From the NCBI GenBank assembly GCA_016292095.1, contig JAEFAB010000004.1, positions 1 to 41,549 of the forward strand: DNA of 41,549 nucleotides, in the 5' to 3' direction. The first letter of the stretch is position 1. The number at the start of each line of letters is the position of its first letter. The translations under genes and the position numbers were made by a program. Source of the DNA: Eubacterium sp. (GTDB taxonomy: Bacteria; Bacillota; Clostridia; Lachnospirales; Lachnospiraceae). Below the pieces are notes generated by a model. The model ran no database searches. It was not told the DNA's origin and worked only from the letters and a program-made list of their open reading frames with translations. Of the stretch, positions 27,320 to 34,230 are shown in pieces.

Positions 27320-27958
27320 TTAGAATTTCATTTGATAATACATTCCGTATTTGATTTTAATCCTCTCCAATTTATGGAACATTGGCTGAGAAAGCACCCA
27401 CAGCACAATCACCGTAGTAACAGCATGAATAAAATTAATAATAATTCCCGCCAGATAGGCATCTACAAAGGCCTCTCTTGTCGGCTCATCCACTGACATA
27501 AACACCGTTCCCGTGTCCATAATCAATCCATAAACAAGCATTGTTGCCAAAAAACCATAAATACAAAGCAACACTTTATTGGCACAAAGCCCTTCTCTTC
27601 CATAAAAAACTATTGCTGCGCCCAGCCCCACGAGACCAAAAGCAACCATCTGCCACGGTGTCCATGGTCCCTGTCCAAAAACAAAGTCCGAAAAAAACGC
27701 TGTCAGAACGCCGGATAAAAATCCTGCCTGTTTTCCCAACATGGCACCGGTGATAATAATAATTGCTGCACTTGGTTTCATTTCCGGAATCATAAAAAAC
27801 ATAACTCTGGATACAATGGCAATCGTAGTCATTACTGCCAACACAACGATTTCTCTTGATTTCGGCTTTCTTCGTTCAAAGGAAAAGGTAAACATAAAAA
27901 TGGCTACCGCAATAATTACAAAAGAGATTAAATAATATTGTCTTCCGTCAAGAAACAT
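27320..27958 (-). CDS. ECF transporter S component (predicted cobalamin/corrinoid)
   Basis: 212 residues, about six hydrophobic helices with the first serving as an N-terminal extension; family ECF_trnsprt. Seen: AVMTTIAIVSRVMFF, the KPSAAIIIITGAMLG stretch and FVFGQGPWTPWQM. It binds the vitamin and toppled inwards by the EcfT/EcfA module. The substrate is inferred from the cobalamin riboswitch at 33441-33604 and the transcobalamin-like partners; the S protein may be related to CbrT. Start ATG has GGGAGG seven bases upstream and overlaps the ATPase gene by 31 bases. Confidence 0.88.
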   Translation of the reverse strand: MFLDGRQYYLISFVIIAVAIFMFTFSFERRKPKSREIVVLAVMTTIAIVSRVMFFMIPEMKPSAAIIIITGAMLGKQAGFLSGVLTAFFSDFVFGQGPWTPWQMVAFGLVGLGAAIVFYGREGLCANKVLLCIYGFLATMLVYGLIMDTGTVFMSVDEPTREAFVDAYLAGIIINFIHAVTTVIVLWVLSQPMFHKLERIKIKYGMYYQMKF

Positions 27959-29505
27959 AAAATATCCTCCCTTTTAATTGCTCCCTTTAAAACCTTTCCT
28001 GCCATTTTATTGACAGTGGTTGTATAGAAACTGTTGCCGGTAAAGAATGCTCGCACATTGGCGGTACAAGCCAGTGTCCCTCTGGAAAACAACCCACAAC
28101 GGTCGGCATACTCTCCGCAAAAATCAATATCATGACTTACCATAATGATGGTTTTTCCCAGATTCTTCAATTCCTTCAGCACATTCCCCAACTGCTCTTT
28201 ATATATTCCATCAATTCCTTTCGTCGGTTCGTCTAACAAAAGAATATCCGGGTCCGTGGCAAGAACCTTGGCAAGCCCCAACTTCTGCTGCTGACCACCG
28301 CTGATATCATAAGGATGGTGATTTTCCAACGGCTTCAATTCCATCAGAGTAATGATTTCTTCAGGCACATCCTCCAATTCTTTTTTTACTGTATCTTTAC
28401 AAAACAGTGTCTGCACATCCTGAGGCAGATAAGAAATCCGTCCCTGTACTTTCACTTTTCCCCGATAGGGTTTATAGACGCCGGATAATACGGACATGGT
28501 GGTTGTTTTTCCGGTTCCGTTTCCTCCGAGAATTGCGAAGATTTCTCCCTTCTTTATGTGAAGCGATAAGTTCCTTAAAATGTCTTTTCCTTCTCTCATA
28601 TAGCGGAACCACAGGTTTTTACACCGGATGGCATCCTCATGGTCTCCGGAAACTTCCTGAATTTCCATGGCACCTGTTTTGTGCTGCGCCTCAATCCACT
28701 CTCGTCCTTCCTTAATTGACAGGGGCATCTTCCCTTCCCCGTCTCCGGTGACACCATAATAAATCTGTGCCGGATATGGCATCAGTTTCATAAATTCATT
28801 ATCCAGATTTTTTACCAGAACCTCCGAAAGAGAACCGGTGTGAATCACGCTTCCGCTATCCATAATGATTGTATGATCTGCCAATGGTAACACATAATTC
28901 AAACGGTGTTCTGACAATATAATCGTAATTCCAAAATCCTCATTGATTTTCTTTAAAGTATCCAAAAAATGTTCTGCAGCAATAGGATCCAGCTGTGCTG
29001 TCGGTTCATCTAAAATCAGAATTTCCGGGCTTAAGACCATGGTCGCTGCCAGATTTAATAGTTGCTTTTGCCCGCCGGATAACACATCTACCGGCTGATC
29101 GTACCAATCGGTAATTCCAAAATACTCGGAAATCTCCGCCACACGAATTTGGATTTCCTGCTGCTGGTACCCCATATTTTCCATGCCAAAGGCCAATTCG
29201 TGCCAGACTTTATCGGTAACCAACTGGTGTTCCGGCGACTGCATCACAAAACCGATCTTTTGTGCCTGCAGCTTTTCATCCACCTCTTCCATGGGCTGTC
29301 CATTCCAGAAGACCCGGCCTTCTTTTTTGCCGAAAGGACAAATTGCCGGCTTCAAATTTCTTAGAAGGGTACTTTTCCCACAGCCGGATTTTCCACATAA
29401 AACAACAAAGGCTCCCTGCTCTATTTCCAAAGAGACATTGTGAATTGCCGGTGCTTCTGCCTTCGGATAGGTGAAACTTAAATTTTCGATTTTAATCTGT
29501 ACCAT
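27928..29505 (-). CDS. Fused double ECF ATPase (EcfA-EcfA')
   Basis: 525 residues, two ABC ATPase domains in one chain (about 1-240 and 285-510). First domain: Walker A GKSGCGKST, signature LSGGQKQ, Walker B ILILDEPTAQLDP. Second: GGNGTGKTT, signature SGGQQQKLGLAKVL, LLLDEPTKGID. A full pair in one gene is typical of dedicated (group I) ECF systems that do not share EcfA with other S components. GGAGG upstream of the ATG; the gene overlaps EcfT by 28 bases and the S component by 31. Confidence 0.95.
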   Translation of the reverse strand: MVQIKIENLSFTYPKAEAPAIHNVSLEIEQGAFVVLCGKSGCGKSTLLRNLKPAICPFGKKEGRVFWNGQPMEEVDEKLQAQKIGFVMQSPEHQLVTDKVWHELAFGMENMGYQQQEIQIRVAEISEYFGITDWYDQPVDVLSGGQKQLLNLAATMVLSPEILILDEPTAQLDPIAAEHFLDTLKKINEDFGITIILSEHRLNYVLPLADHTIIMDSGSVIHTGSLSEVLVKNLDNEFMKLMPYPAQIYYGVTGDGEGKMPLSIKEGREWIEAQHKTGAMEIQEVSGDHEDAIRCKNLWFRYMREGKDILRNLSLHIKKGEIFAILGGNGTGKTTTMSVLSGVYKPYRGKVKVQGRISYLPQDVQTLFCKDTVKKELEDVPEEIITLMELKPLENHHPYDISGGQQQKLGLAKVLATDPDILLLDEPTKGIDGIYKEQLGNVLKELKNLGKTIIMVSHDIDFCGEYADRCGLFSRGTLACTANVRAFFTGNSFYTTTVNKMAGKVLKGAIKREDILCFLTEDNII

Positions 29506-30365
29506 CTCAATGCCTCCTCCATATTAATAAGTATCGGGGTCAAACATAATAATAAATATGCCCCATATGTGAATAACTCTCCTTTTACAACGTAGAAAGG
29601 ATAATAAACAGTCTCGATTCTTCCGGCAATTTTTTCAACAAAGACCACCGCCGTCCAGCAAAGGATCCATACCAAAACCACATAATCCCGAAACTGAAAC
29701 TGATGATTATGAAACGTACTTCTTTTTCCCATTCCATAGCCCCTTGCCCGCATGGAATCTGCTGTGTCCACAGAGTTTTCCAGTGCCCAGGTAGTAGTAA
29801 TGGAAAAGGTTTCAAAGCCGTTCTTCAACCGATTCTTCCATCCCGCATTCTGCTTTCCCAAAGCTTTTTGTGCAAAATGAATTTTCCTGATTTGTCTTGT
29901 ATATTTCGGAACAAAGCGGAAAATCATGGACAACAACAAAGCAAAATGTGGGAAAATTCTTCCTACAATTTCAATCAGTTTATCCTGGGTAACAATAGCA
30001 TTCAAGGAAGAAAACCACAACAGGGTTCCGCAAACCATAATTGCCAGCGACCCGCCATATATTAAGGATTCCAGCGTTACCGGATTTCCGGTGGGAAGAT
30101 AGAACAATAAGGTTACTCCCTTGTGAGAAAACAGAGGATTAATAATTGCTGTTGCAAGAAATACTCCCACAATCATTGCCAGATATTTCAAGCCACTACG
30201 CCCTTTTAAATAGAAATGATAAATTAACGCAGAAAAAAAGGACACAACAATCAGGCCTGCCTGCATTTGAAACATAGTAAGCCCTAAAACCGTAATATAA
30301 AAAATCATATTAATGATGGGATGAAAATTTGAAAATTCATCCACGCGTTTTGTCTGTCCGAACAT
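29478..30365 (-). CDS. ecfT: ECF transporter transmembrane component (EcfT)
   Basis: 295 residues, about six hydrophobic helices, CbiQ/EcfT family. The coupling-helix motif is seen as DSMRARGYGMGKRS (about 211-224) plus FRFVPKYTRQIRKI. It joins S component to the ATPase. ATG overlaps the stop of the DUF4430 lipoprotein gene (TAATG) with GGAG five bases upstream. Confidence 0.93.
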   Translation of the reverse strand: MFGQTKRVDEFSNFHPIINMIFYITVLGLTMFQMQAGLIVVSFFSALIYHFYLKGRSGLKYLAMIVGVFLATAIINPLFSHKGVTLLFYLPTGNPVTLESLIYGGSLAIMVCGTLLWFSSLNAIVTQDKLIEIVGRIFPHFALLLSMIFRFVPKYTRQIRKIHFAQKALGKQNAGWKNRLKNGFETFSITTTWALENSVDTADSMRARGYGMGKRSTFHNHQFQFRDYVVLVWILCWTAVVFVEKIAGRIETVYYPFYVVKGELFTYGAYLLLCLTPILINMEEALRWYRLKSKI

Positions 30366-30850
30366 TACTGCTCCTTATATTCCTGTCCCAAATCTTTTCC
30401 CAAATCACAAGTATAATGCCATTCAATGACGTCTCCGTCCTTCACATCATACCCGCTGCATCCCACATTGGGATATTCTCCGTTCACACAATACATCCAA
30501 CCGGATAAATCTCCACACTCAAATTCGTAGAGATTATCAATTCCTTCAATATACGCCAAATCTCCTGTAAAAGAAGCTTCCATCAGAACCCCTTCTTCTT
30601 TCATGGTTCGTTCCAATACATCATATACTGAATCCCCGTTTTCAAAAGGAACTTCCTTTTTCTCCAGAATTATCCCGTTTTCCGGCAAAAATTCTTTTAA
30701 ATCCTGACGTAATTCCCCATTCTTAACTGCATTGGTACATTCTACTGACAACGTACAAACATGTCCATCCTTACTTTTTGCCTCTTTTTTCCCGCATCCT
30801 GTTGCAAAAAGGCAGAGGATTAAAAGAATCCCAATCCAAATCTTTTTCAT
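30365..30850 (-). CDS. DUF4430 lipoprotein (transcobalamin-like beta domain)
   Basis: 161 residues. Lipoprotein signal with LFATGC (Cys19). The mature part is a single DUF4430 domain (about 34-150): NGDSVYDVLERTM, then SGWMYCVNGEYPN and VKDGDVIEWHYTCDLG. DUF4430 (PF14478) is the C-terminal half of intrinsic factor/transcobalamin. Starts one base after the stop of the barrel protein gene and shares its stop with the EcfT start. Anchored outside the membrane next to the transporter, it probably holds or delivers the corrinoid. Confidence 0.85.
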   Translation of the reverse strand: MKKIWIGILLILCLFATGCGKKEAKSKDGHVCTLSVECTNAVKNGELRQDLKEFLPENGIILEKKEVPFENGDSVYDVLERTMKEEGVLMEASFTGDLAYIEGIDNLYEFECGDLSGWMYCVNGEYPNVGCSGYDVKDGDVIEWHYTCDLGKDLGQEYKEQ

Positions 30851-30851
30851 T

Positions 30852-32234
30852 CTATATCACCTTTCGCTTTCGTTTCCAGCAATAAACTCCTCCAAAAAGA
30901 ACTGCAGCGCCGGGAATCAGTACAAGGTATAACCTCTTTTCCCCGGATGATTCTTCCTTCTCATTTCCGGTTTCATTTCCGGTTTCTTTCTCGGATTTCG
31001 TCGTATCCTGCTGCTCCTTCATCATAGAAGTACTCTCCCGAGCTATTGCTTTTGCAACTTTTGAATCTTCTTCCGTCTTTTCTTCTTTTTTTGTTCCTTT
31101 TTTTGAAGTGGTTTCTTTTCCCTTTACAGAAACGGTTTCCGTTACGCCGGTTTCTCTCTCCTTTGCTGACGGCACTTTCTGTTTCTTTTTACCCGTTGAC
31201 GCTTTCGTCGTCTGAGATTCCTCTGAACTATTTCTATTGTAGGAAATTTCTGGTTCCCTGATTGGAACTGCATCCGACATATTGTACAACCGATTTTTTC
31301 CCTGAGTGCTTCGAGAATATGCAACCAATGCATAAAATGCCTGCTCTGTTGCCATTCCGTTAATGCTTCCTCCCTTTGTATGCAGAAAGCCTCCGTTCTT
31401 ATAATACTGTAACAATCCATCCAGTACAGTATTCCCGTTTTTTACGAAACGTTGATCCTTCACGGAAATGCCCAATTCCGACAATGCCATAAGTACCTGA
31501 GCCGTACTTTCACAGGTTTTGATGCCGGTCGTTTCATAACTTCCATCGGAAAGCTGGATTTCCGACAATACCTCAAGCCCTCTGTTTACTGCTTTTTTCA
31601 CCGCTGCATCTTTTCGATAGTAGGGTGCCAACGCCTGAATTGCCATGGCCGTAATGTCTGCATCTGCCTTCTTTCCGCTAAATGCCCAGCCTCCATCTTC
31701 CAATTCTCCGTTTAAAAGCAATTGAATTAACTTTTCTCTGGTGGTAACTTCTCCGCCATACTCTTTATCCGCACTTGGAACCTGATAACCGCCGCAGTCC
31801 AGTGCAATCAATGTATAAATAATTCCATTCGAGCCCTGCTTCTTTACGCCATCCAATTCAGCCAGGGGTTTCAGTAAATTATATCCCTGAAATTTTTCCG
31901 GATTTTCTTTGATGGATGTTAACGCGATTACCACTCTGGCATATTCCGTATATTTCCGCTCCGACAGATTTCCCTGACAATCTTTCACTGTCTGTGCCAA
32001 ATTTTTCCGATACGTAATGCCATACTGGCTCCTTAACTTCTCCCCCCGGGCAAGTCCCATAATCATCCACTCTCCTCCAATACTCCCCATGGAAGGATTG
32101 GGATTATGAGCCATCAGATAAGAAGCAGTCTCAGAAAGAACCTGGTGAATCTGCTTTGACGGTTCCGCATTGACTGTCGTCGTACCAACAATCAGGATGC
32201 AAAAAATCAGCACCATGCGAATCATTCTTTTCAT
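30852..32234 (-). CDS. Membrane-anchored alpha-barrel protein with prenyltransferase-like repeats
   Basis: 460 residues from the ATG at 32234, with TGGAGA six bases upstream; a TTG at 32255 is unlikely. Signal peptide (1-23, ending VNA), then an alpha/alpha barrel (about 30-325) with repeat helices (DADITAMAIQAL, STAQVLMALSELG, ATEQAFYALVAYS) and turns DGGWAF, DGSYET, NGGFLH. No prenyltransferase zinc residues or cyclase DxDD motif are seen. A long Lys/Glu/Thr linker leads to a C-terminal helix (about 436-452) and a basic tail, so the barrel sits outside the membrane. The same barrel forms the N-terminal half of transcobalamin. Confidence 0.82.
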   Translation of the reverse strand: MKRMIRMVLIFCILIVGTTTVNAEPSKQIHQVLSETASYLMAHNPNPSMGSIGGEWMIMGLARGEKLRSQYGITYRKNLAQTVKDCQGNLSERKYTEYARVVIALTSIKENPEKFQGYNLLKPLAELDGVKKQGSNGIIYTLIALDCGGYQVPSADKEYGGEVTTREKLIQLLLNGELEDGGWAFSGKKADADITAMAIQALAPYYRKDAAVKKAVNRGLEVLSEIQLSDGSYETTGIKTCESTAQVLMALSELGISVKDQRFVKNGNTVLDGLLQYYKNGGFLHTKGGSINGMATEQAFYALVAYSRSTQGKNRLYNMSDAVPIREPEISYNRNSSEESQTTKASTGKKKQKVPSAKERETGVTETVSVKGKETTSKKGTKKEEKTEEDSKVAKAIARESTSMMKEQQDTTKSEKETGNETGNEKEESSGEKRLYLVLIPGAAVLFGGVYCWKRKRKVI

Positions 32235-32253
32235 ATCTTTTCTCCATAATGAC

Positions 32254-32280
32254 AAAAGGCAAGAGCCACGCTCTTGCCTT
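32254..32280 (-). terminator. Intercistronic hairpin/partial terminator
   Basis: A perfect 10-bp stem (AAGGCAAGAG at 32256-32265 with CTCTTGCCTT at 32271-32280), loop of five, followed on the minus strand by four T. It lies between the first DUF4430 gene and the rest of the operon and should reduce downstream transcription, giving more of the secreted first product. Confidence 0.7.
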
Positions 32281-32291
32281 AAAAATCCTGA

Positions 32292-33401
32292 TTATTTTTT
32301 AATCTTTGCAGATTTCGCTGCACTCCACTTTCCATAGTAGAATGCTCCGTCTTTCTTTACATAAGCACGAACCTTTACATACACCGTTTTATTCTTTGTA
32401 AGTTTTGCTGTAGAAACTGTTGCTTTCTTTGTGGCAACAACTACGGCATTCTTTAACTTCTTGTTTGTTGCATATTTAACTTCATAACCGGTTACACCCT
32501 TAACAGTTTTTACTTTGATTTTAGCCTTGCAACCTTTTACGTTTTTAACTGATTTTACTTTACTTGCTGCAACTTTTGGTGCTGCATTTTTAGCATCATC
32601 TTCTGCCTTCTGTGCTTTCTGTCCGTCCTTAAAGACTCCTACCATAAAGTCAAGTGTATATGCTCCTGCTGTGATATTAGACTGTTCTGCATTATATGTT
32701 GTCAAATAACCTGCTGCTGCATCTAAAACTTTCTTAAAGTTTGCACTCTTATCAGCAATCTTTTCTTCTTTTGCATTTGCATAAGACTTGATTAATGCGT
32801 CTTTATTTGCTAATTCAATTCTCTTTTCTCCTGAATTCCAATCAACAAATCCTAAGTCAATACCATATCCGTAAATAGAAAACTGAACACGAATTACATC
32901 TCCGTCCTGAACCTTCTGTTCAGACATACCATGCATAGAACTTTCATTGTTAATTGTATACATCCATCCGGACATATCTGTATAACTGCCTGCCTGTAAA
33001 AGTCCGTCTTTGCTTGCTTTTTCTTTCACGTTTTCATTGGTTGGCGCAGCATAATTTCCCCAATCTGTTACATAATCACCAAATGCAGTAATTTCGCTTG
33101 GAATATCAACTGTGCCATTGTCTGCATTCTTAATTCCTGAAAGATATCCACTTGAAACTACAAGTTCAACATTTTCTGCTTTTGCTGCTTTCTCAACAAC
33201 GGATAAAACCGTATCGCCTTCTGTGATTTCAACCTTTGTCGGTTCTACCAAAAATCCCTGTCCAATTGTAAGTTTTTCAATTGTTACATAAGCAGATTTT
33301 GTGGTCGCTGCTTCTGTTTTCACAGGTGTTGTTGTAATTGCTGATACTGTAAGTACCATTGACAGTACAACTGCCCCAATTTTGTTTGTAAATTTCTTCA
33401 T
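32292..33401 (-). CDS. Secreted DUF4430 protein with lysine-rich fibronectin-like C-terminus
   Basis: 369 residues, first gene under the cobalamin riboswitch. Signal peptide (1-32, ending EAA). DUF4430 domain about 55-185 with GDTVLSVVEKAA, SGWMYTINNESS and VQDGDVIRVQFS, the same core as in the lipoprotein at 30365. A helical segment follows (185-280), then a Lys-rich beta module (about 284-369; GVTGYEVKYATNKKLK, YVKVRAYVKKDG) typical of fibronectin-like repeats on Lachnospiraceae surface proteins, probably for wall binding. AAGGAGG upstream of the ATG. No sorting signal or membrane anchor. Confidence 0.85.
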   Translation of the reverse strand: MKKFTNKIGAVVLSMVLTVSAITTTPVKTEAATTKSAYVTIEKLTIGQGFLVEPTKVEITEGDTVLSVVEKAAKAENVELVVSSGYLSGIKNADNGTVDIPSEITAFGDYVTDWGNYAAPTNENVKEKASKDGLLQAGSYTDMSGWMYTINNESSMHGMSEQKVQDGDVIRVQFSIYGYGIDLGFVDWNSGEKRIELANKDALIKSYANAKEEKIADKSANFKKVLDAAAGYLTTYNAEQSNITAGAYTLDFMVGVFKDGQKAQKAEDDAKNAAPKVAASKVKSVKNVKGCKAKIKVKTVKGVTGYEVKYATNKKLKNAVVVATKKATVSTAKLTKNKTVYVKVRAYVKKDGAFYYGKWSAAKSAKIKK

Positions 33402-33440
33402 TGTTTGCCTCCTTTTCGTCTTGCTTACGAATTTTAGTGA

Positions 33441-33604
33441 AATTGTGTTGACATATCCTGACTTAAGTTCCTCCTACTAAAAGCGCCTTCCAGATTAATT
33501 CCGTGGCAAAATGCTTCGTTCGTCCCTCATACAGTAGAGAAAGACTGTGCCGGATTCTCACCGGACTTCCCTTAAACCGATTCCTGTCGTATCGGACCAC
33601 AATT
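33441..33604 (-). ncRNA. Cobalamin riboswitch
   Basis: Minus-strand leader. P1 is closed by AATTGTG (33598-33604) and CACAATT (33441-33447). Between them lie the family's conserved blocks in order: AAGGGAAGTCCGGTGAGAA then TCCGGC, a stem-loop, GCCAC, CTGGAAGGCG, and the B12-box form TAAGTCAGGAT. Binding of adenosyl- or other cobalamin should shut expression. The aptamer ends 39 bases before the ATG; that gap shows no T-ended hairpin, so control is probably at translation (AAGGAGG at 33408-33414). Confidence 0.95.
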
Positions 33605-33627
33605 TGTTTGAATAAACAGACGAATTT

Positions 33628-33656
33628 ATTTTATAACATCTCCATTTTAATGTCAA
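33628..33656 (-). promoter_or_regulatory. Promoter of the cobalamin operon
   Basis: Minus strand TTGACA (33651-33656), 17 bases, TAAAAT (33628-33633), placing the transcript start about 15 bases before the riboswitch P1. Confidence 0.88.
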
Positions 33657-33996: not shown

Positions 33997-34230
33997 ATGA
34001 AAACAGTTACAGTAAGCTTGAATTCTATTGACAAAATTAAGTCCTTCGTTAAGGACATTAACAAGTACGATAACGATTTTGATTTAGTATCAGGACGCTA
34101 CCTGATTGATGCAAAATCCATTATGGGTATTTTCGCATTAGACTTGTCAAAACCAATCAAGCTGAATATTCACAAAGGACAGTCAGAAGTAGATCAAATC
34201 GCTGAATCCCTTAGTCAGTATACCTGCTAA
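33997..34230 (+). CDS. HPr-fold protein lacking His15, retaining the Ser46-type site (Crh-like)
   Basis: 77 residues. The HPr pattern is recognisable: a strand MKTVTVSL, a helix, and DAKSIMGIFALDL around Ser41, equal to the HPr kinase site of HPr (KSIMGV). The usual GLHxRPA is replaced (NSIDKIKSF), so there is no His15 and no phosphotransfer. This is the logic of Bacillus Crh, a catabolite-repression partner of CcpA. AGGAGG lies eight bases before the ATG. Strong promoter and ribosome site suggest high expression. Single gene, convergent with rsmI. Confidence 0.82.
   Translation: MKTVTVSLNSIDKIKSFVKDINKYDNDFDLVSGRYLIDAKSIMGIFALDLSKPIKLNIHKGQSEVDQIAESLSQYTC

Follow-up and report, generated by a model that had tools for sequence, protein, structure and literature searches.

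Intrinsic factor and haptocorrin are single soluble chains that animals take up through receptors. For a third animal carrier, human transcobalamin, the alpha and beta domains have been expressed separately and assemble in a cobalamin-dependent manner (PMC5599065), which shows that separate alpha and beta parts can work together. In bacteria, Burroughs et al. (2007) described a transcobalamin-like domain that occurs with a toroid in CbiO/CbiQ operons, predicted these systems to be B12 scavengers, and proposed that animals acquired transcobalamin from Gram-positive bacteria (PMC1796856). The solved structure 6FNP is that of an energy-coupling factor (ECF) transporter shown to import both cobalamin and cobinamide (PMC5997447). 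Here we analyze a six-gene operon in a stretch of DNA from Eubacterium sp. (contig JAEFAB010000004.1); the whole stretch, positions 1-41,549, is called the window, and all coordinates refer to it. We consider it quite probable that the encoded system imports a corrinoid, either vitamin B12 or cobinamide, by means of capture proteins of its own, with an alpha/alpha barrel and a DUF4430 domain sandwiching the ligand as the two domains of transcobalamin do.

The operon occupies the region 27320-33656 and lies entirely on the minus strand (Table 1). Two DUF4430 proteins, an exported barrel protein, and a full ECF transporter were found at the coordinates given by the initial annotation of this DNA, made from the sequence alone. 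The distances between consecutive genes 1 to 6 (36, 1, −1, −28, and −31 bases) make a single operon likely, and the gene order is shared with its relatives L003 and L004. In named records, the two nearest operons belong to a Eubacterium sp. and to an uncultured Lachnospiraceae bacterium. The cobalamin riboswitch that had been placed ahead of the operon was recovered as a match to RF00174 over the full length of the model (positions 1-189 of 189), scoring 58.8 bits where the gathering score is 31.5, and under strict filters it was the only match found in the 2.3-Mb genome. Riboswitches of this family permit expression when internal cobalamin is low. The 3′ end of the riboswitch is 28 bases ahead of the first start codon, beside a purine-rich stretch that resembles a ribosome-binding site, so control of translation is plausible.

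The Pfam label of the S component, ECF-ribofla_trS, is a general name. A profile was built from 40 S-component sequences taken from operons of this type, including that of the window, and was searched against all solved chains. The top match in the Protein Data Bank (PDB) was CbrT of Lactobacillus delbrueckii (6fnp_A, E = 2.2e-22, residues 4-177 of 182), followed by 4hzu_S (E = 1.4e-5) and RibU (E = 2.4e-4). Thus, among solved S components CbrT is the nearest to that of the window, which, with EcfT and EcfA alongside, supports the claim of a dedicated ECF transporter. Riboflavin, which the Pfam name had raised as a substrate, was set aside; the E-value of the profile is 18 orders of magnitude lower for CbrT than for RibU. 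These matches point to a transporter of the CbrT type, predicted to import a corrinoid. Among related loci, L038, L055, and L060 have two different EcfT genes flanking one EcfA and one S component in one operon. In L115 (G365 contig 1, 8613-10826, minus strand), a CbrT-like S component, a barrel, and SLH (wall-binding) domains lie in one open frame of 737 residues; a signal-peptide-like stretch between the S component and the barrel allows an internal start, so this frame is not proof of a fusion.

Both DUF4430 proteins match PF14478 above its cut-off of 23.8 bits, gene 1 with 42.7 bits over profile positions 34-70 alone and gene 3 with 68.2 bits over positions 1-71 of 72. The C-terminal part of gene 1 had no Pfam match above cut-off, which leaves the earlier description of this protein as wall-binding unsupported. 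An AlphaFold2 model of the DUF4430 domain (6 rows; predicted local distance difference test [pLDDT], 76; predicted template modeling score [pTM], 0.72) was compared with the PDB by Foldseek and gave 19 matches at E ≤ 0.001. Seventeen were transcobalamin, haptocorrin, or intrinsic factor, and the remaining two were chains of 3u7z, a protein of Ruminococcus gnavus. The best match was human transcobalamin, represented by its beta domain in isolation (5no0, E = 1.2e-5), so the modeled domain clearly has the transcobalamin beta-domain fold. In the model, strands 71-76 and 79-85 come after the helix 56-66, which is the site of the transcobalamin-like hairpin described in 2007. Like the transcobalamin-like clade of the SLBB family, these proteins combine export signals, a beta-hairpin insert after the helix, and a toroid and CbiO/CbiQ as neighbors. 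A 2014 paper on fish B12 binders also assigns transcobalamins a C-terminal DUF4430 domain (PMC4350170). In the lipoprotein family, S116-G117-W118 is invariant (46 of 46).

The barrel was harder to place. Its best Pfam match was SQHop_cyclase_C, below cut-off, and otherwise it showed weak squalene-cyclase/prenyltransferase repeats. Searches of the PDB by phmmer and by profile, with the barrel and with DUF4430, returned cyclases, unrelated weak matches, or nothing, and no direct link to transcobalamin; presenilin matches caused by membrane stretches were discarded. A predicted structure of the barrel (3 rows; pLDDT, 74; pTM, 0.80) was compared by Foldseek with 350,542 chains. All five best PDB matches were transcobalamin, at E = 0.005 to 0.009 (best, 0.0054), with TM scores of about 0.5 and root mean square deviations of 6 to 9.5 Å. 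This ranking is suggestive of a resemblance to the transcobalamin alpha domain. The initial annotation had assigned both transcobalamin folds to the operon; the assignment held for the DUF4430 model, and for the barrel transcobalamin was the best match, at weak scores. Five barrel residues, W63, D200, E249, H292, and Q305, are conserved in 53 to 56 of 58 rows each and could line the predicted site. The model has low confidence in the loop that contains H292, and a role for this residue as an axial ligand is speculation.

We then examined how widely the arrangement is conserved. Among 250 genomes of the window's family, 56 have relatives of the barrel, counting the window's own, and 55 of these 56 also have DUF4430. 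Sixty loci around barrel matches were collected from 49 of the 55 other genomes; G078, G109, G199, G218, G219, and G233, with weak or short matches, were left out. The barrel and DUF4430 occur together in 59 of the 60 loci, and the full module (barrel, DUF4430, EcfT, EcfA, and S component) is present in 40 loci from 39 of the 49 genomes, several of the other 20 loci being cut by contig ends. At the level of the phylum, 398 genomes were searched with a profile built on the fused form, and 76 had a match to one or the other of its parts at E ≤ 1e-10. From the better of these matches, 20 loci in 17 families other than the window's were chosen; the module is complete in 16, and in 13 an RF00174 match lies on the same strand no more than 2 kb upstream. 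A search of a plasmid collection found no relative of the operon, the sole match to the ATPase being 87 bases long.

The riboswitch statistics come from the 56 barrel genomes, a sample selected for carrying the barrel. RF00174 matches number 97 in this sample, spread over 41 genomes, and 95 exceed the cut-off. A DUF4430 or barrel gene lies within 10 kb downstream on the same strand for 46 of the 97 (44 of the 95), in 33 of the 56 genomes, against a chance expectation of about 0.5 (calculated with assumed genomes of 2.6 Mb and 67 of the 88 barrel rows). With all 88 barrel rows, the 10-kb counts of 46 of 97 and 33 genomes did not change. In the mirror-image arrangement, used as a control, there were 7 matches, 6 of which also had such a gene in front, and on the opposite strand there were 2. 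Within 3 kb, 31 of the 97 precede DUF4430 or the barrel. Where a genome has exactly one RF00174 match, it is ahead of these genes in 19 of 23 cases. The 2.9-Mb genome G564 has 26 cobalamin riboswitch matches, and the next highest among 20 genomes scanned has 13. Short stand-alone DUF4430 frames of 144 and 156 residues were seen right behind a cobalamin riboswitch in two genomes (G157:C61:27685-27843, minus strand; G227:C17:25515-25706, plus strand), in each case away from the barrel that the genome also encodes.

In the nearest relative, L003, RF00174 stands directly ahead of the same operon. Because many loci have no such match, we rescanned 35 loci with all Rfam models at the gathering score: the 32 of the 60 loci without RF00174, plus L003, L004, and L078 (the positive control). 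The rescan returned RF00174 in L003 and L078 and some tRNAs, and no other riboswitch family was found in the 33 loci without RF00174. Hence, no other known riboswitch substitutes for it, and the idea that these loci use a different riboswitch was not borne out. The initial annotation had named prevalent control of related operons by other riboswitches as an outcome that would count against it; what we detected was RF00174 or none.

In the window, the alpha- and beta-type domains are encoded by separate genes, unlike the single chain of transcobalamin, in which the alpha domain comes first. Relatives show several other arrangements. We counted 75 barrel domains of good length in the window, L003, L004, and the 60 loci; 38 have no DUF4430 in the same chain, 18 are preceded by one, 10 are followed by one of the gene-1 type, and 9 are followed by one of the gene-3 (ECF-side) type, so that the two domains share a chain for 37 of 75. 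The nine last-named chains have the domain order of transcobalamin, and an alignment inspected by eye shows hydrophobic stretches between their domains, as if a membrane-tethered barrel and a membrane-anchored DUF4430 had been joined with their topology kept. In the 75 barrel-bearing frames, an N-terminal hydrophobic stretch was found in 64, a C-terminal one in 42, and an LPxT motif in 1. In a tree of the 75 domains made by a quick method, 30 of 72 inner branches were open and the C-terminal fusion label took 2 changes; the tree does not tell whether the fused or the split form came first. The longest chain with barrel and DUF4430 has 3,382 residues. Of three long chains scanned, those of L052 (916-11064, plus strand, 3,382 residues) and L055 (3455-12010, plus strand, 2,851 residues) carry Ig-like and other domains beside DUF4430 and the barrel, the latter also having a beta-propeller-type stretch; in L041, only DUF4430 was found.

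The host genome is 91% complete. Matches to B12-binding domains exceed the cut-off in two of its products, MetH and a frame of 586 residues, and CbiD had no match in it. A B12-dependent MetH together with no detected CbiD suggests that the host probably requires an external corrinoid.

From these features we infer a course of events that begins when internal cobalamin is low and the riboswitch permits expression of the operon. Three proteins would then lie outside the membrane: the secreted DUF4430 protein, the barrel on its membrane tether, and the lipoprotein with the second DUF4430. The barrel and one DUF4430 domain would enclose one corrinoid from two sides, in the manner of the alpha and beta domains of transcobalamin. 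Because relatives fuse DUF4430 both on the N-terminal side of the barrel (as if genes 1 and 2 were joined) and on its C-terminal side (as if genes 2 and 3 were), either DUF4430 protein could be the partner, and the two may divide the labor. The corrinoid would be passed, probably by the lipoprotein near the membrane, to the CbrT-like S component, with the double ATPase and EcfT powering its movement inward.

Table 1. Features of the operon region, listed in the direction of transcription
Feature	Window positions	Strand	Basis or remarks
Promoter-like site, TTGACA-17-TAAAAT	33628-33656	-	11/12 consensus positions; immediately upstream of riboswitch
Cobalamin riboswitch aptamer, RF00174	33430-33616	-	Covariance-model match
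Gene 1, secreted DUF4430 protein, 369 aa	32292-33401	-	N-terminal hydrophobic signal; PF14478 match at 32880-32993
Terminator-like hairpin between genes 1 and 2	32256-32280	-	11 pairs, then T-rich; pattern match
Gene 2, exported alpha/alpha barrel, 467 residues	30852-32255	-	N-terminal signal and C-terminal membrane helix
Gene 3, DUF4430 lipoprotein, 161 residues, mostly DUF4430	30365-30850	-	Lipobox-like ATGC; transcobalamin beta-domain-like fold
Gene 4, EcfT (CbiQ-like) membrane coupling protein	29478-30365	-	Family match
Gene 5, EcfA, two ABC ATPase domains in one chain	27928-29505	-	Family match
Gene 6, ECF S component, CbrT-like	27320-27958	-	Pfam match and family profile versus PDB

The smaller signals in Table 1 call for some caution. 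The promoter is a consensus match, and the number of such sites in the region is not above that in shuffled sequences; terminator-like patterns numbered 7, against 5.2 expected from shuffles. If the hairpin behind gene 1 acts, it may reduce expression of the genes behind it, and the secreted protein could then be more abundant than the rest. Gene 2 is listed with a TTG start at 32255, and the ATG seven codons on, at 32234, is the likelier start. Divergent from the operon, at 33997-34230 on the plus strand, is a 77-residue frame that is HPr-like (PF00381, E = 5e-4, below the cut-off).

A number of results weigh against a corrinoid importer in which barrel and DUF4430 share the ligand. No RF00174 match lies within 10 kb ahead of these genes in 23 of the 56 barrel genomes. 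Of these, 15 lack RF00174 matches altogether, among them G175 with its three barrel loci, and L004, the second-nearest operon, has none in the stretch examined. CbiD is present in 14 of the 56 genomes, so the system is not confined to auxotrophs. On the structural side, the barrel profile found squalene-hopene cyclases, C3-like proteins, and prenyltransferases in the PDB, with transcobalamin not among them, and the DUF4430 sequence profile gave zero PDB matches. The family of the animal carriers, PF01122 (Cobalamin_bind), matched 5 of 58 barrels at E ≤ 0.1 (best, 9.1e-5), and over the 250 genomes it had no match above its cut-off and 1 below. The barrel model had no match at E ≤ 0.001, and complement C3d-type and terpene cyclase chains came close behind transcobalamin. 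Finally, a simple lipobox pattern fits 12 of 37 membrane-near DUF4430 proteins, the others seeming to be held by an N-terminal helix.

These points bear differently on the other explanations. The operon could import a corrinoid with DUF4430 alone binding it, the barrel serving for anchoring, for catching corrinoid bound to proteins or polymers, or for docking on the transporter. The isolated beta domain of human transcobalamin does bind cyanocobalamin (5np4; PMC5599065), the fold match of DUF4430 is far stronger than that of the barrel, and DUF4430 is the more widespread, occurring in 123 of the 250 genomes versus 56 for the barrel (and in 68 of 194 genomes without a barrel, if the two draws of 250 genomes are identical, as their handles indicate). 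However, all but one of the barrel genomes have DUF4430, the two stand together in nearly every locus and share a chain in several arrangements, and the best fold match of the barrel is to transcobalamin, whose barrel does bind; we regard this division of roles as unlikely.

It is very improbable that the ligand is something else, be it riboflavin, cobalt, or another tetrapyrrole or vitamin, with the riboswitch acting as indirect regulation. The Pfam name of the S component, the CbiQ-like EcfT (a family named for cobalt), and the 23 genomes without a riboswitch near these genes would allow it, and a reviewer of the 2007 article cautioned that the domain may bind other ligands (PMC1796856). Against this stand the preference of the S-component profile for CbrT over RibU, the absence of any other riboswitch family from the rescanned loci without RF00174, and CbiM, which matched none of the 6 operon proteins. 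That the barrel is a surface enzyme unrelated to transport (a terpene cyclase, prenyltransferase, or glycosidase-like alpha/alpha toroid) seems to us barely credible. Its nearest solved structures by sequence are squalene-hopene cyclases, and most barrels match the SQHop or Prenyltrans families of Pfam, but these matches cover short repeat stretches only, and the protein is exported and has DUF4430 and ECF genes as neighbors. Class II cyclases carry DXDD, in place of which the barrel consensus has D-x-D-x-T.

A corrinoid importer with shared capture by barrel and DUF4430 is the reading that we prefer. The operon is also a natural experiment in which a two-domain vitamin carrier is split into parts, and it supplies the 2007 proposal of transcobalamin transfer with an actual bacterial system open to expression and assay. 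The chances seem to us about even for a broader proposal: that ligand-induced assembly of the barrel with interchangeable DUF4430 partners, one released and one membrane-bound, delivers B12 to a CbrT-type pump, that many anaerobes of the phylum have in it a major B12 importer not assigned until now, and that this kind of system is ancestral to the animal carriers. The module could well be one of the missing systems. Searches of an open-access collection, which lacks most subscription papers, found neither the riboswitch link, nor a CbrT-type S component in these operons, nor the three-chain split, nor binding or transport experiments on such operons.

Among described systems that capture B12, BtuG has a beta-propeller fold and its transporter is the outer-membrane BtuB, and both differ from the operon here. 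What the operon would share with BtuG-type surface lipoproteins of gut Bacteroides is capture of B12 ahead of a transporter (PMC6143338). A paper on corrinoid starvation in Dehalobacter was set aside, as it concerns other transporters (PMC4285132). With ECF-CbrT of L. delbrueckii (6FNP), the operon has in common the S-component family and the EcfA/EcfT energizing unit. There, a single ECF module serves eight predicted S components, and the available text mentions no extracellular capture protein (PMC5997447), whereas here the ECF genes are in an operon with three exported proteins.

The animal carriers transcobalamin, intrinsic factor, and haptocorrin share the beta-domain fold with the operon, the barrel giving a weak match, and two domains assembling around cobalamin from separate chains are described for transcobalamin (PMC5599065). 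Transcobalamin is, however, one soluble chain taken up by receptors, whereas here the pieces are separate, two of them are membrane-held, and they are tied to an ECF transporter; the sequence similarity of the barrel is also below family cut-offs. The systems of 2007 are the closest. As described in the portion of that article available, their exported domain likewise has the beta fold of transcobalamin and in many cases comes with an alpha/alpha toroid; another, paralogous surface protein and CbiO/CbiQ-like genes accompany it, and the predicted role is to scavenge B12 or its precursors (PMC1796856). In view of that proposal, the operon is not a new kind of system. The 2007 systems, in the same portion, comprise toroid-SLBB fusions with stand-alone SLBB proteins, and the word riboswitch is absent from the text, whereas the operon here has the toroid and two DUF4430 domains on three chains, with a CbrT-type S component and a riboswitch. 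What is added beyond 2007 is riboswitch control, the CbrT-type S component, the split layout, and numbers.

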